Source of the DNA: Candidatus Zixiibacteriota bacterium
Lineage (GTDB): Bacteria; SM23-81
Reading direction: 5' to 3'
Assembly: GCA_030628225.1 (NCBI GenBank)
Contig: DAOVRJ010000042.1
Span: 1-13,013 of the forward strand
Length of the DNA stretch: 13,013 nucleotides
Within the stretch, counting starts at the first letter, position 1, and each line of letters opens with the position of its first letter. A program made the position numbers and the translations under genes. Of the stretch, positions 1 to 8,925 are shown piece after piece. The notes beneath the pieces were generated by a model. The model saw only the letters and a list, made by a program, of their open reading frames with translations. It was not told the DNA's origin and searched no databases.

Positions 1-8
1 GGACTCAT
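1..8 (-). CDS. possible start of the gene after selA (selB expected), cut by window edge
   Basis: An ATG at 8-6 overlaps the selA stop codon TGA (7-5) in an ATGA arrangement, the same coupling seen elsewhere in this window. Only two full codons are visible (Met-Ser), so nothing in the sequence identifies the product. selB, the Sec-specific elongation factor, commonly follows selA in bacteria and would be needed to read the proposed Sec codon at 2483-2481. The identity is therefore inference from gene order only. Confidence 0.3.
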
Positions 9-1453
9 CGCCCCTTTCGCCTCGATACGCGCCCCTCACTTCGGTTTTGGTGAATCTGCTCACACAACCGGGCCAGGGCTCGCCGCAAACCGCTCAACTC
101 CCGGGAAGAGACCGTCCTCAGATCCAACAACAGCCGGTTGCCGGCCACCCTCCCCACCACCGGGGGTGAACCTGTTCGCAGACTGCGGGCCAACTGGGCC
201 GGCGAAAAGCGCGCGGCGCGCAATCCAATTAAACAGGTGGGCATGCGGACACCGGGACAGGAACCACCACCTACCTCCGAGAACCCACTCAGCAGCTCGG
301 CTTCCAGATCATCCCCCAACACAGGCCTGAGCTTTCCCAGCAGACGCCTGGCCCGGCGCCGCACAGAGACAGCAGGTCGGAGGATCATCCGGAGATGAGA
401 CAGCTGTTCGGCGGGCCGATCGGCATATGCGTAAAGACGCAGAACTGCTTCCAGGGCGGCGAGAGTGAGCTTGCCGGGCCGGATGGCCCGGGAGAGCGGG
501 TTTTTTCGCAATTGGCTGGTAAGACGCTGGCGACCCAAGATGATGCCGCACTGAGGCCCACCCAGAAGCTTGTCGCCGCTGAAGGTGGTCAGGTCCATCC
601 CGGATTTCACCATCTCCACCACCGTGGGCTCGTCGGTCAGGGCGCTTCCTTCCGGATGCGCCAGAAGACCGCTGCCCAGATCCTCAACGACCAGCAGGCG
701 CCGTCTTCTGCCCAGCCGTGCCAGATCCTGAAGGGACGGGCGATGTGTAAAACCCACCAGTTGGTAGTTGGATGTATGGCTGCGGAACAACAGGGCGGTT
801 TTCCCGGTGATAGCTTTCTTGTAGTCCTCCAGATATGTCCTGTTGGTAGTGCCTACCTCCACCAGATGCGCCCCGCTGCTGGCCATCACCTCGGGAAGAC
901 GAAAAGACCCCCCTATCTCGATGAGCTCACCCCGGGAGACGATCACCTCTCTTCCCTTGGCGAAGGTGTTCAAGACAAGCAGAACGGCTGCGGCGTTATT
1001 GTTGACCACCATGGCGGATGGCGCCCCGGTCAGCCTGGTGAGTAAACCCTCCACATGGACGCCTCTATGTCCCCGTTTGCCCGACGGCAGCTCCATCTCC
1101 AGGTTGCAATACCCGGAGGCGACGCGGCTCAGGGCCTGAACGGCCTCGTCGGGCAGGGGAACCCGTCCCAGATTGGTATTCAGAACTACCCCTGTGGCGT
1201 TGATCACCGGCTGCAAACTGGGCCTGGCCATGTTGACCAACTCCTGTTCAACCTGATCCAGAAAGTCATCCCGGGAAACTCCACGGGGCGGATCTTCTCC
1301 CCGGCGGATGAGCCCTCGCCACTGGGCTGCTACCCGGCGCATAGCTCCCACGATCATTTTCCGGGGAAATTGACAAAAACGCTCTCTCACCGACCCATCG
1401 TCCAGCAAGGCCCCGATGGATGGCAGATCCCGAAGGGAAATGGAAGGGGACAC
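5..1453 (-). CDS. selA: L-seryl-tRNA(Sec) selenium transferase (selenocysteine synthase)
   Basis: SelA is the cytoplasmic PLP enzyme that converts Ser-tRNA(Sec) to Sec-tRNA(Sec) using selenophosphate. The 482-residue product is close to the usual length for the family. Family hallmarks are visible: INATGVVLNTNLGR (84-97), the SRGELIEIGGSFRLPEVM stretch (173-190), VEVGTTNRT (198-206), and the PLP-lysine motif SGDKLLGGPQCG, which places the Schiff-base lysine at residue 295, matching the position I recall for the E. coli enzyme. The start is a GTG at 1453 preceded by AGGAG (1464-1460) with a six-base spacer. The gene follows the proposed selenoprotein gene by 190 bases that contain a terminator-like hairpin, so its expression may be separate or attenuated. 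The stop overlaps a possible next start codon (ATGA). Confidence 0.97.
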   Translation of the reverse strand: MSPSISLRDLPSIGALLDDGSVRERFCQFPRKMIVGAMRRVAAQWRGLIRRGEDPPRGVSRDDFLDQVEQELVNMARPSLQPVINATGVVLNTNLGRVPLPDEAVQALSRVASGYCNLEMELPSGKRGHRGVHVEGLLTRLTGAPSAMVVNNNAAAVLLVLNTFAKGREVIVSRGELIEIGGSFRLPEVMASSGAHLVEVGTTNRTYLEDYKKAITGKTALLFRSHTSNYQLVGFTHRPSLQDLARLGRRRRLLVVEDLGSGLLAHPEGSALTDEPTVVEMVKSGMDLTTFSGDKLLGGPQCGIILGRQRLTSQLRKNPLSRAIRPGKLTLAALEAVLRLYAYADRPAEQLSHLRMILRPAVSVRRRARRLLGKLRPVLGDDLEAELLSGFSEVGGGSCPGVRMPTCLIGLRAARFSPAQLARSLRTGSPPVVGRVAGNRLLLDLRTVSSRELSGLRRALARLCEQIHQNRSEGRVSRRKGR

Positions 1454-1521: not shown

Positions 1522-1566
1522 AAAAAACGTTCCCGCAAGAAACGGGCTCGTCTCCTCCGGGAACGT
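1522..1566 (-). terminator. Rho-independent terminator or attenuator upstream of selA
   Basis: On the minus strand a nine-base arm (1566-1558, ACGTTCCCG) pairs perfectly with 1535-1527 (CGGGAACGT) and runs straight into six T residues (1527-1522). The intervening 22 bases can fold further: GAGACG pairs with CGTTTC (one G-U) around an AGCC tetraloop, leaving a 3x3 internal loop. This is the form of an intrinsic terminator at the end of the korDABC-selenoprotein transcript. No convincing promoter is visible between it and selA, so selA may depend on readthrough, with the hairpin acting as an attenuator. Confidence 0.72.
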
Positions 1567-1643: not shown

Positions 1644-2636
1644 TCATTTCTTTCCGGCGCTCTGCGACGACTGTCGCGGCGCCACACGCCTGGCATTGTA
1701 CTCGGCCATCAATTGGACCATTTCCTCATCGTCGGCCACGCTCTTGTCCAAAAGGGTCCACTGTATCTCAAAAGATTTAACCGAGTTGTGATCATCAAGA
1801 ATCAGCTCGACATCGCCCAGCTCATTGCCAGCGGTCGCCGGAATCACAAAAATGGTCTCGTTAACTTTCTTAGCATACTTCCTCTCGGCTCCCTTAGCGA
1901 TAAAAAAGAGGTCTATGCCGCCCACCTCTCGGGCTAACCGGGTGGCCTCTCTGAGGTCCAGATCGGAGAGGACGATCACCACATCGCAGTGCTTCTTCAA
2001 CTTCTGCACAGTGTTCTGCAGCACCACCTCGGGCTTGGGGACATAAAACTCCATGGGAATCTCCCGGGCCATTTTGTCCCGGACCACCTCGCTGGTCAGT
2101 CCCATGATGGCCACCTTTATGCCTCCATACTGAAACCCCAGAAAACTGGACCAGCCCAGCCTCTTGATCACATAGGGATGGACCAACAATCGATCGCTGT
2201 TCCGCCGGTATAAGTTGCTGGAAACCAAGGGCAGACGCTCTTTATCCCTCAGCTCCAGAATCCGGCGCGAGCCAAGAATGATCTCCTCTCTGGCCAAGTT
2301 GATGGCATCGTAGCCCATAAGGGACATAGCTCTTACCAGGGTCTCCGTCTTGCGCTCGCTGGCCTGTCCTCTGGCCCGGCAGAAATTGCCGCTGTCCACG
2401 ATCAGGTGTGCGGATTCTCTCTCCAATTTCTCATTAATTACCGTGGCTCTCCGAGCCACGCCGCCGTGGCGGCAGCCCCGTCACCCGCTGGGTTCCAGCC
2501 GGCCGTTGACGTCGCCGGTAAACAGCACGTGCAGACTCATCTGACCTCGGGCCTGGGCAGCCGATGAACCTAAAAACAGCAAACCGCCAATAAAAAATAG
2601 CAGCAAATTCTTTCGCCCAAGCAACTTACCTAACAT
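1644..2636 (-). CDS. exported UshA-like metallophosphoesterase-fold selenoprotein (Sec at codon 52, TGA)
   Basis: A 330-residue protein is read from ATG 2636 if the in-frame TGA at 2483-2481 is translated as selenocysteine (U52). AGGAGG (2649-2644) lies seven bases before the ATG, and the gene overlaps the end of korC by 11 bases. Residues 1-29 form a Sec signal peptide: K/R-rich start, hydrophobic LLLFFIGGLLFL, and an AQA cleavage site after residue 29. After it comes LHVLFTGDVNGRLEP, the first motif of UshA/5'-nucleotidase-like phosphoesterases, then S-G-U-R-G-C, then GGVARRATVI, which is also typical of this family. Later blocks (LIVDSGNFC, MGYDAINL, VIVLSDLD, VELILDD) follow the fold, but most metal ligands are replaced. 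Without recoding, only a 51-residue secreted stub or a 271-residue fragment from a GTG at 2459 with no ribosome binding site would result. Substrate unknown; a redox role through the U-x-x-C motif is inferred. A sequencing error or pseudogene is the alternative. Confidence 0.85.
2442..2460 (-). promoter_or_regulatory. candidate bacterial SECIS element (upper stem-loop)
   Basis: Twenty bases after the TGA, CGTGGCTC (2460-2453) pairs perfectly with GAGCCACG (2449-2442) around a GGA loop (2452-2450). The loop begins 28 bases after the TGA and starts with two G residues. As I recall the general description of bacterial SECIS elements, a short stem within the coding region roughly 16-37 bases after the UGA with G in the first two loop positions fits. 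SelB would bind this hairpin to deliver Sec-tRNA. Two other, mutually exclusive hairpins overlap it: 2470-2465 with 2460-2455 (loop GCGG, starting 16 bases after the TGA, closest to the E. coli fdhF spacing) and 2473-2469 with 2464-2460 (loop CACG). Which one acts cannot be decided by eye. Confidence 0.65.
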
Positions 2637-3222
2637 GGTAGTTCCTCCTCTTCAGTGGCGACTTCGTCTTCTCGGCCTTCTCCCCGGCTAATACATCCTG
2701 GCCGTATGCGTATCCCCGGTCAAAAGCTTTGAGGTTCATCTCCAAAAATCCCGGGGGCACCAAGCTGGGGATGGTCTTCTTCATCGCCTCCAGGGACACC
2801 ACCCCGGTTACGGCAGTGAAAAAACCCAGCATGGCCACGTTGGCGATGATGCGATTGCCCAGCTCTTCTGCAAAGCGGGTGGCCGGCACTGTGTAGAGCC
2901 TGATTTTTGCCCCGGTGGATCTTGGGCGAACCAGGTCGGCATCGATGATCAGAATTCCCCCCTCACCCAGCTCCGATTCATACGTGGTGTATGCTTCCTG
3001 GGACATAGCCACCAGGATGTCGGGGACAGTCACATAGGGATAGAGTACCTGTTCGTCGGAGAGGACAATCTGAGCGCTACAGGCACCACCCCTCGCCTCG
3101 GGGCCAAAAGACTGGTTCATCGTAGCAAATTTTTCATCGAAGATGGAGACGGCTTTGCCAATGATAATGCCCGATCGAATGATCCCCTGTCCTCCAAACC
3201 CGGCAAATCGAATCTCCGTCAT
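2626..3222 (-). CDS. korC: 2-oxoglutarate:ferredoxin oxidoreductase, gamma subunit
   Basis: The 198-residue product is the gamma subunit of a multi-subunit 2-oxoacid:ferredoxin oxidoreductase, cytoplasmic, working with KorA, KorB and KorD. It starts with the family signature RFAGFGGQGIIRSGIIIGKA and contains SFGPEARGGACSAQIVLSD and YPYVTVPDILVAMSQEAY, which are standard gamma-subunit blocks. The length is normal. The ATG at 3222 overlaps the korB TGA stop (ATGA), indicating translational coupling. Its last bases (TAA at 2628-2626) overlap the start of the selenoprotein gene, which places that gene on the same transcript. Substrate assignment to 2-oxoglutarate rests on the nearby sucC and sucD; other 2-oxoacids remain possible. 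Confidence 0.9.
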   Translation of the reverse strand: MTEIRFAGFGGQGIIRSGIIIGKAVSIFDEKFATMNQSFGPEARGGACSAQIVLSDEQVLYPYVTVPDILVAMSQEAYTTYESELGEGGILIIDADLVRPRSTGAKIRLYTVPATRFAEELGNRIIANVAMLGFFTAVTGVVSLEAMKKTIPSLVPPGFLEMNLKAFDRGYAYGQDVLAGEKAEKTKSPLKRRNYHVR

Positions 3223-5783: not shown

Positions 5784-6653
5784 TCATTTAATTGCCTCTT
5801 TTACCAGCCCGACGATGTCCTCCGGCTTGGCCGCTACCGGGATGCCTGCCGCCTCCAGGGCGGCGATCTTCTCCCTGGCCGTCCCCGAGCCACCGCTAAT
5901 GATGGCCCCGGCGTGTCCCATGCGCTTGCCCGGAGGAGCAGTCAGTCCCGCGATGAAGGCCACCACCGGTTTGGTCACATGCTGGGAGATGTATTCGGCG
6001 GCCTCCTCCTCATCCGTGCCGCCGATTTCTCCGATGAGCACCACCACATCCGTCTCCGGATCGGCCTCGAACAGCTCCAGGGTATCCACGAATCTGGTGC
6101 CGATGATGGGATCTCCCCCCAGACCGATGCAGGTGCTCTGGCCAATGCCCGCCAAGGTCAGCTGGTAGACAACCTCGTAGGTGAGGGTGCCGCTGCGCGA
6201 GACCACACCCACACGTCCCGCCTTTACTATCTGGCCTGGCATGATACCCACCTTGGCCTTGCCGGGAGTGATGATCCCCGGGCAATTGGGACCGATAAGC
6301 CGGGCCTGCCCTGCGGACAGATACTGCATCACCCTGACCATCTCCAGAGTGGGGATGCCCTCGGTGATGCAGACAATCAGCTGGCAGCCTGCTTCGGCGG
6401 CCTCGCAGATAGCATCGTCGGCGAAAGAGTGAGGCACATATATCACCGAGGTGTTGGCGCCCTCCTGATCCACCGCCTCCTGGACAAAATTATATATGGG
6501 AATGTCCGCCATGGACTGTCCCCCCTTGCCCGGAGTCACTCCGGCCACAACCTTCGTCCCGTACTGGGCCATCTGCTGCGCATGGAAAGCCCCATCCCTG
6601 CCGGTAATCCCCTGAACCACCACACGGGTCTGATCATCAACGAGTATGCTCAT
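5784..6653 (-). CDS. sucD: succinyl-CoA synthetase, alpha subunit
   Basis: SucD carries the phosphohistidine and CoA site of the enzyme interconverting succinyl-CoA and succinate plus nucleoside triphosphate. The 289-residue product is the standard length. It has the CoA-binding start [18 protein letters not shown] (11-28), [11 protein letters not shown] (121-131) and the active-site loop [14 protein letters not shown], which puts the phosphorylated histidine at residue 247. The start is taken as ATG 6653 because family members begin MSILV and AGGAG lies about ten bases upstream; a TTG at 6662 is possible but sits almost on that site. The gene overlaps the end of the DUF2723 gene by 17 bases, which separates it from its usual neighbour sucC. 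Confidence 0.96.
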
Positions 6654-8925
6654 CGTCGGCAAGCTCCTTTCCTGACGGCCTCAAATTACTGCTTTTATCA
6701 TCTGCCAGTAAAAATTTCACGCGCTGAATCTCGGCCCTGATCATCTCGCCATCAGCATCATCGGGGCACAGGCTCATATACTGTTCCCACAGATCGATGG
6801 CCTGAGGAAAATCCACCCGACAATAGGCGTAGATGACGCCAAGGTTCCGCAGAGGATCCGGATAGCCGGCATCCAACTCTATTGCCCGCCGATACGCCTT
6901 CGCGGCCAGGTCATAATAACCGGCCTGTTTATAGGCCAGCCCCAGATCGTTGTGGGTTTTGGCCGAACAGGGATCCAGAGCGATACCGTGCTGATAAACT
7001 TGGATGGCCCGCTGATGATCTCCCATCCGCAGGCAGGCCAGGGCCAGATTATTCACTATCCCCAACCTCTCCGGTGCCAGGCGGAGGGCTCGTTCGTAGG
7101 CCTCCGCCGCCAGCCGGTAATCGCTCATCTGAAAGTAGACATTCCCCAGGCTGAGGTGAGAACCATAGAAGGAGGAATCCATGGCTACGGCCTGCCGGCC
7201 TTCCTTTATAGCCAGTTGAAACCGGCCCCGCCGGGCCAGCTCCTGGGCCAGGTTACCCCTGGCCACGGCATAGTTCTTAACCAACTCCTGCAGAAAGAAA
7301 TCCTCCCCAGCGCATTTCCCCCCCAAACCTCTCAGGCGGTAGCGATCCCAGATGCTCAGCAGATCGTCCGTCTCCATTCGGTCCCTGCGTAGTTGATAAA
7401 CGATCCCCACCTGATGAGCAGCCCAGCCGGAGATTTTCGGCAGATCTGCCGGTGTAGTGCCGTAGATCGGCCTTCTCTCAGGGTCCAGAGGCCCTCGAGG
7501 AAGGGCGAGATGCCGAAAGATATCCGCTCGACCGGTATGCCGCAAGCTCACATCGAGTCTCTTCCGCTCAATGATCCGGGCATAAGCCAGGGAAAACGTC
7601 GGCGTGTCCATACTGGTGAACAACAACGCCTGCGGCTCCAAAGTGGCCAGGATGTTCTCCCCTAAATCAGCGGCCACAAATTGCCTGCTCCGGTCGTTTG
7701 CCGCAAAGTTACCCCTCAAGGGCAGGATGGCCAGCAGGGATGCCAGACATCCCAGGACCACACCCAGGGGCCGGTACGGTCGACGGCTTAATGGGACCAT
7801 CAGCCGAAGGAGTTTTCCACCCAACCACCCAGCTCCCATCCCCGTCCACAAAGCCACCACGGCAAAGGCGGGGATGAAAAAAACCTGCACCAGATAGAGA
7901 TCTCTGGGAGTGACGGGAAAATTCAGCAGCCAGACCACACCGGGGCCACAGAACAGAAAAAGACACAGGGTGAGTACCGCCCAGTCCCTGCTCCGGCGAA
8001 ACATGAAAATCAGACCCGCTAACCCCAAGCCCCAAAAGACCGGCCCGAATTGTTTTCTGGCAAGGATCACCAGGGCCAGCAACTGGTCTCTTAGCAATTG
8101 CCATGAACGGGGGTTCTTGATCAGACTTCCATACGAGGCCCGGCTGATGTGGGCCAGAACTCCCCTCATGGTCACAGGGTGACCCCAATCCAGAGGTGGG
8201 TTGGCCAGAGCCCGGAGGGGCAGATAAAGATAGACGGATAATCCTACAGCCAGAAAAATCATCGCCAGCAGAGGATCTTTCCAGTTTTCAAAGAGCTCGT
8301 CCCGATGCCAGGTTAAAAAAAACAAAAAAGCGGGCGTCGCCAAAACGGCAGTAGGATGATGCGCCAGACTCAGGCCGAAAACGAAGACAAACAGAAAAAA
8401 GTAGCGACTCTCTCCCTTTTGCTGCCACCAGAACAGCAAGATCATGCAGATCAATAGCAGAAAAAGGTTTAGGGTGTAGACCTCGGCCACCACCGCCTGG
8501 GACCACAGGGTCCGGGAAAAAGCGCACAGCAGCCCGGCCAGCAGGGCGAAAGCGCCGGCCCATAGAGCATCTTGATCTGACCTCTGCTCTCTCTCCCGCG
8601 TCTGTGTCCTGCGGATCAATCCTGCCACCAGCAGGAAGATCAAACCGGCACTCAGGGCGGCACAGAGAGCCGATAACAAGTTAAGCCGATAAGCTACCTC
8701 GCCCACCGGCAAAAGGGCGAACAAGCGCCCCACCAAGCAATAAAGAGGATATCCCGGGGGATGAAGGATACCCAAACTGCCGGACCCGGCCACCAGCTCA
8801 CCACTGTCCCCAACGAAGATGGTCGGGCAAAGAGTACGAAGATAGACGGCCAGGGGAAGGCACACAGCCAAGAAACCCCACATCCAAGGAGATCTATACT
8901 CTCTCCCCTTTCCCCCAGTAAACAT
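6637..8925 (-). CDS. DUF2723 multi-spanning membrane protein with C-terminal TPR repeats
   Basis: A 762-residue integral membrane protein of the DUF2723 group, distantly related to protein O-mannosyltransferase/GT-C glycosyltransferases (TMEM260-like). Hallmarks are [17 protein letters not shown] (37-53, with the acidic residue expected in the first loop), LHPPGYPLY (54-62), [13 protein letters not shown] (141-153), LAHHPTA (188-194) and [17 protein letters not shown] (234-250). Many hydrophobic segments follow up to about residue 420. The last 175 residues hold four TPRs of nearly exact 34-residue period (about 588-724), presumably soluble and for protein contact. Transfer of a lipid-linked sugar to exported proteins is a plausible but unproven role. 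It begins 32 bases after sucC, with only a weak distant AAGGGA as ribosome site, and overlaps sucD. No link to succinyl-CoA chemistry is evident. Confidence 0.85.

Follow-up and report, generated by a model that had tools for sequence, protein, structure and literature searches.

The locus considered here raises a simple question, namely what a TGA codon is doing in the middle of a gene that otherwise reads as a single intact frame. The window, i.e., the whole stretch of DNA that was analysed, comprises 13,013 nucleotides from a Candidatus Zixiibacteriota bacterium. On its minus strand, at 1644..2636, lies an UshA-like gene that runs from an ATG at 2636 to a terminal TGA at 1644-1646 and whose sole interruption is a second TGA at 2481-2483 (minus strand), which is codon 52. 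A perfect AGGAGG ribosome-binding site (2644..2649, minus strand) occurs seven bases before the ATG, and 278 residues of UshA-like protein come after the internal TGA; these details, reported in the initial annotation of the sequence, were confirmed. When the frame is read through, a protein of 330 residues results, MLGKLLGRKNLLLFFIGGLLFLGSSAAQARGQMSLHVLFTGDVNGRLEPSG-U-RGCRHGGVARRATVI..., in which a signal-peptide-like start is followed by a 5'-nucleotidase-like domain, with residues 21-303 matching the NCBIfam model NF041198. The resemblance of the N-terminus to a signal peptide predicts that the protein is exported. The residues at the site itself (49-56; 2469..2492, minus strand) form the motif P-S-G-Sec-R-G-C-R, in which a Ser takes the place of the family's first Cys and a Cys occurs at +3 relative to the TGA. 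The initial annotation proposed that codon 52 of this exported protein encodes selenocysteine (Sec), and that proposal is now supported by the host's Sec machinery, the conservation of the TGA, an alternation of Cys and Sec among relatives, and a SECIS-like hairpin. We consider this reading very probably correct; SelB would then deliver Sec-tRNA at 2481-2483.

The most general alternative, a change of genetic code, was ruled out, as most genes of the window stop at TGA. As the initial annotation had argued on the same grounds, TGA is still an ordinary stop here and terminates selA, sucD and six other genes, while porC and sucC end in TAA. Between sucD and sucC, the window also carries a gene for a membrane protein of 762 amino acids that combines a TMEM260-like domain with TPR repeats (6637-8925, minus strand).

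Clearly, a selenoprotein calls for the means to make one. The gene is accompanied by selA, encoding Sec synthase, at 5..1453 on the minus strand; it has a GTG start and scores 549 bits against TIGR00474, well over the cut-off of 267.9, so the adjacent selA described initially is genuine. The source genome (2.34 Mb in 306 contigs, ~92% complete) was also found to possess the other components for which a check had been advised, including selB with a score over cut-off, a tRNA-Sec gene (selC) at 76.6 bits, and selD, likewise over cut-off. The selD gene is interrupted by one in-frame TGA (L043 350-1270) and is probably a selenoprotein gene itself. In G001, a genome from another genus of this family, these genes occur together in the order UshA-like Sec gene, selA, selB, a nuclease-like gene, tRNA-Sec and selD (L042 2105-9481). 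Three contigs of the source genome, namely that of the window (C237), C88 with selB, and C240 with tRNA-Sec and selD, align to this stretch in the same order. The assembly leaves these contigs separate, and their alignment makes it probable that the source genome shares the arrangement. A long hairpin resembling a terminator, with a T tract, was also detected in the window between the Sec gene and selA (1522..1566, minus strand). Its counterpart in G001 lies just upstream of selA, within 8276-8492 of L042, and shows paired changes in the stem together with a common GAGGAGACGAGC segment.

Related genomes bear directly on whether the codon is real. The UshA-like gene of G001 is 63% identical to that of the window and has TGA at the aligned codon. 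G002, a genome from another family of this phylum, carries two such genes in tandem, and each has TGA at the motif site (VPSG-U-GCNRTGG in one copy, EPCPT-U-GHRHDYGG in the other); no such gene was found in G003, the fourth of only four genomes of the phylum in the collection. Comparison of the G001 and window genes gave a dN/dS of ~0.24 before the TGA (dN 0.217, dS 0.909) and ~0.19 after it (dN 0.245, dS 1.264), with 170 of 270 residues identical in the latter part. These ratios point to purifying selection that is strong both before and after the codon. The source assembly is fragmented into its 306 contigs, and this could encourage the view that the TGA arose from faulty sequencing or assembly, or that the gene is a pseudogene. 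However, the same codon is TGA in an independently assembled genome of another genus, the second family adds two more copies, many further relatives carry it, and the part downstream of the TGA has been held to a dN/dS of ~0.19. The independent genomes have already largely refuted this explanation, and we give it next to no weight.

The Sec reading gains further from the wider family. When a profile built from the four proteins above (that of the window, that of G001 and both G002 copies) was run against 386 genomes, dozens of relatives were recovered that have a single in-frame TGA, along with others that lack one. Two matches, L134 and L136 (from G084 and G354), carry two TGA codons, of which the second may be the true stop. 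At the aligned site, 55 motifs have Sec and 21 have Cys, in keeping with the Cys or Sec expected at position 52; beyond G001 and the two G002 copies, about 50 more distant relatives have the in-frame TGA. Most motifs read PCG-U or PCG-C, followed by GG(L/V)ARR. The motif that the initial annotation gave for Cys-containing relatives, P-C-G-C then GG(L/V)xRR, is thus right for the family by alignment. Its second Cys does fall at the TGA site, whereas the first is absent from the window protein, which has Ser there. In a quick tree, the branch that holds the protein (SH-aLRT 98) has six rows, all with Sec: the window protein, the G001 protein, both G002 copies and two copies from G105. A search of viral contigs found no relative, and a scan of genome contigs returned only nucleotidases, from Bacteroidota and elsewhere, whose metal sites are complete.

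The same alignment bears on two further ways of reading the codon. Since the frame stays open past the TGA whatever the codon specifies, another residue might be inserted, either by near-cognate readthrough or as Trp. Against this, the relatives that lack the TGA have Cys at the aligned position, TGA serves as a normal stop in the window, and selB co-occurs with the TGA form, being over cut-off in all 36 checked genomes with that form compared with five of the 18 that have only non-TGA forms (Fisher p 7.7e-9). Insertion of another residue is accordingly very improbable. Alternatively, the TGA could end translation, with a second protein starting at GTG 2459, from which the list of open reading frames includes a frame of 271 residues. 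No ribosome-binding site was seen upstream of that GTG, however, and a protein begun there would be without its signal peptide and first strand, both conserved in one frame with the remainder; moreover, the Cys homologues are single continuous proteins. We regard a restart as just as improbable as the insertion of another residue, and selenocysteine remains the preferred reading of codon 52.

Hairpins of the SECIS type downstream of the TGA formed part of the original proposal. The better candidate, CGUGGCUC-GGA-GAGCCACG, has a stem of 7-8 bp and a GGA loop that starts 28 nt after the TGA (2442..2460, minus strand), and a hairpin occurs at the same position in many Sec relatives. In fact, a loop that contains G lies 28, 25 or 18-19 nt after the TGA in most Sec members. 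A second, TGA-proximal hairpin, GCUGCCG-CCA-CGGCGGC (2460..2476, minus strand), is less like a bacterial SECIS because its loop is without G. Compared with synonymous shuffles, the window hairpin alone is borderline (p 0.048 in a position-specific test, 0.057 by folding energy). The signal is stronger across the family, where the position-specific test gave a mean z of 1.43 in Sec members vs 0.20 in Cys members (p 2.5e-7), although this pooled comparison takes in related sequences that are not independent; plain folding energy gave a weaker pooled result (p 0.04). An Rfam search of the window returned no match.

What kind of protein would carry this residue? The initial annotation knew of no described selenoprotein family of this type, but one exists. 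UshA-like selenoproteins of COG0737 have been known since 2008, when a survey of the Global Ocean Sampling data reported 76 Sec members with a CxU motif (PMC2398784); they also appear in PMC9312934 and PMC13188914, and two NCBIfam models, NF041198 (UshA_like_PCGU) and NF049981 (UshA-like (seleno)protein family 2), represent them. Nevertheless, the window protein falls short of both, scoring 146.1 bits (E 1.3e-42) against a cut-off of 275 for the former and 56.4 bits against 140 for the latter. It also scores below cut-off with the SoxB model TIGR04486 (63.3 bits vs 550), and no Pfam match was found at E up to 1.

With NF041198 members the protein has in common the N-terminal domain, the place of the Sec, the GGxARR that follows it, export, and the distance to the hairpin. 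It differs in its length of 330 amino acids, in the absence of a C-terminal tetraheme domain, and in having S-G-U-R-G-C instead of C-G-U. The members over cut-off that were checked (L082, L088 and L114) all carry that domain, Cytochrome_C554 (PF13435), and its absence, along with the altered motif, helps to explain the low score. Since a close relative with the heme domain (L138, 3090-4550) still scores only 251, the shortfall reflects divergence as well. NF049981 describes a Sec form of this superfamily that is likewise short and without heme, but its motif is different (CxxU), and its member in G026 sits on a long separate branch. The COG0737 selenoproteins of the 2008 survey belong to this superfamily too, with CxU as the motif reported there, and the portion of that survey consulted contains no mention of the Ser/Cys+3 form.

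The UshA-like label holds for fold and ancestry. A Foldseek search with an AlphaFold model retrieved 5'-nucleotidases (3ivd at 4.4e-17 and 1ush at 2.3e-15), and the likeness to E. coli UshA and its kin amounts to a TM-score of ~0.6-0.66 by query length plus weak sequence similarity. The model has a modest mean pLDDT of 66.5 and is weak exactly at residues 51-57, making the Sec loop unreliable. The label fails for the chemistry. Nine UshA residues, from the metal site and the dyad, were read from an alignment against a canonical relative; the window protein keeps one of the nine, Sec members keep from none to five, and ordinary nucleotidases keep all nine. By this alignment, the two-metal site and His/Asp dyad of 5'-nucleotidases are lost from the window protein. 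It also has no second nucleotidase domain. The fold, together with UshA and SoxB profiles that match weakly, might still suggest an active metallophosphoesterase, either nucleotidase or SoxB-like, with its Sec near the metals; with a single site residue of nine retained, such an activity is unlikely.

What the Sec members do have is a Cys near the Sec. Exactly one Cys is present within four residues of Sec in all 55 Sec motifs, at -2 in 50 of them, -3 in two, +2 in one and +3 in two, the last being the window protein and its G001 relative. In the window protein, the partners would be Sec52 and Cys55, joined as a selenenylsulfide redox pair within the loop that follows the first strand of the degenerate 5'-nucleotidase fold. 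Since the metal site is lost, the most likely activity would be that of an extracytoplasmic thiol/selenol oxidoreductase or reductase, whose Sec/Cys redox centre would be built on what was once a nucleotidase fold.

Fusions and a neighbouring gene tie the family to tetraheme cytochromes and to thioredoxin/DsbD-like modules. In the longer relatives, four CxxCH motifs and a Cytochrome_C554 domain are fused to the UshA-like Sec domain, and the CxxU copy of G002 is followed by a gene for a Trx/CcdA-like protein of 520 amino acids (L045 4378-5940), for which the only Pfam match is a weak one to thioredoxin and the CcdA likeness was judged by inspection. A Cys relative with the CPTC form (L056) is itself fused to a homologue of this protein (34% identity, E 1.6e-32). 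Because of these ties, the window protein is probably an extracytoplasmic redox protein with a Sec/Cys pair. It contains no CxxCH motif, and a separate electron donor, either thioredoxin/DsbD-like or a cytochrome, would replace the tetraheme domain built into its longer relatives. The neighbouring genes in the window name no electron donor or substrate, and those of the more distant Sec members revealed no shared partner by inspection.

The superfamily is therefore a known one, and the window protein is an uncatalogued short form with a relocated partner Cys, outside the current NCBIfam models. Whether it typifies a distinct, unmodelled branch is a more evenly balanced matter. Such a branch would have kept its Sec fixed while the resolving Cys moved (from CxU to UxxC, UxC or CxxU), and would have dispensed with the built-in tetraheme cytochrome, leaving an exported Sec/Cys oxidoreductase that stands alone on a defunct nucleotidase fold and is encoded at the head of a complete selenocysteine gene cluster. 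As the subtype is missed by the curated models, such genes would probably be cut short at the TGA when annotated. The pattern seen across the family, in which the metal site is lost, one Cys is always near the Sec, and tetraheme cytochrome or Trx/CcdA modules are fused to the domain, makes a redox role for the family directly testable.
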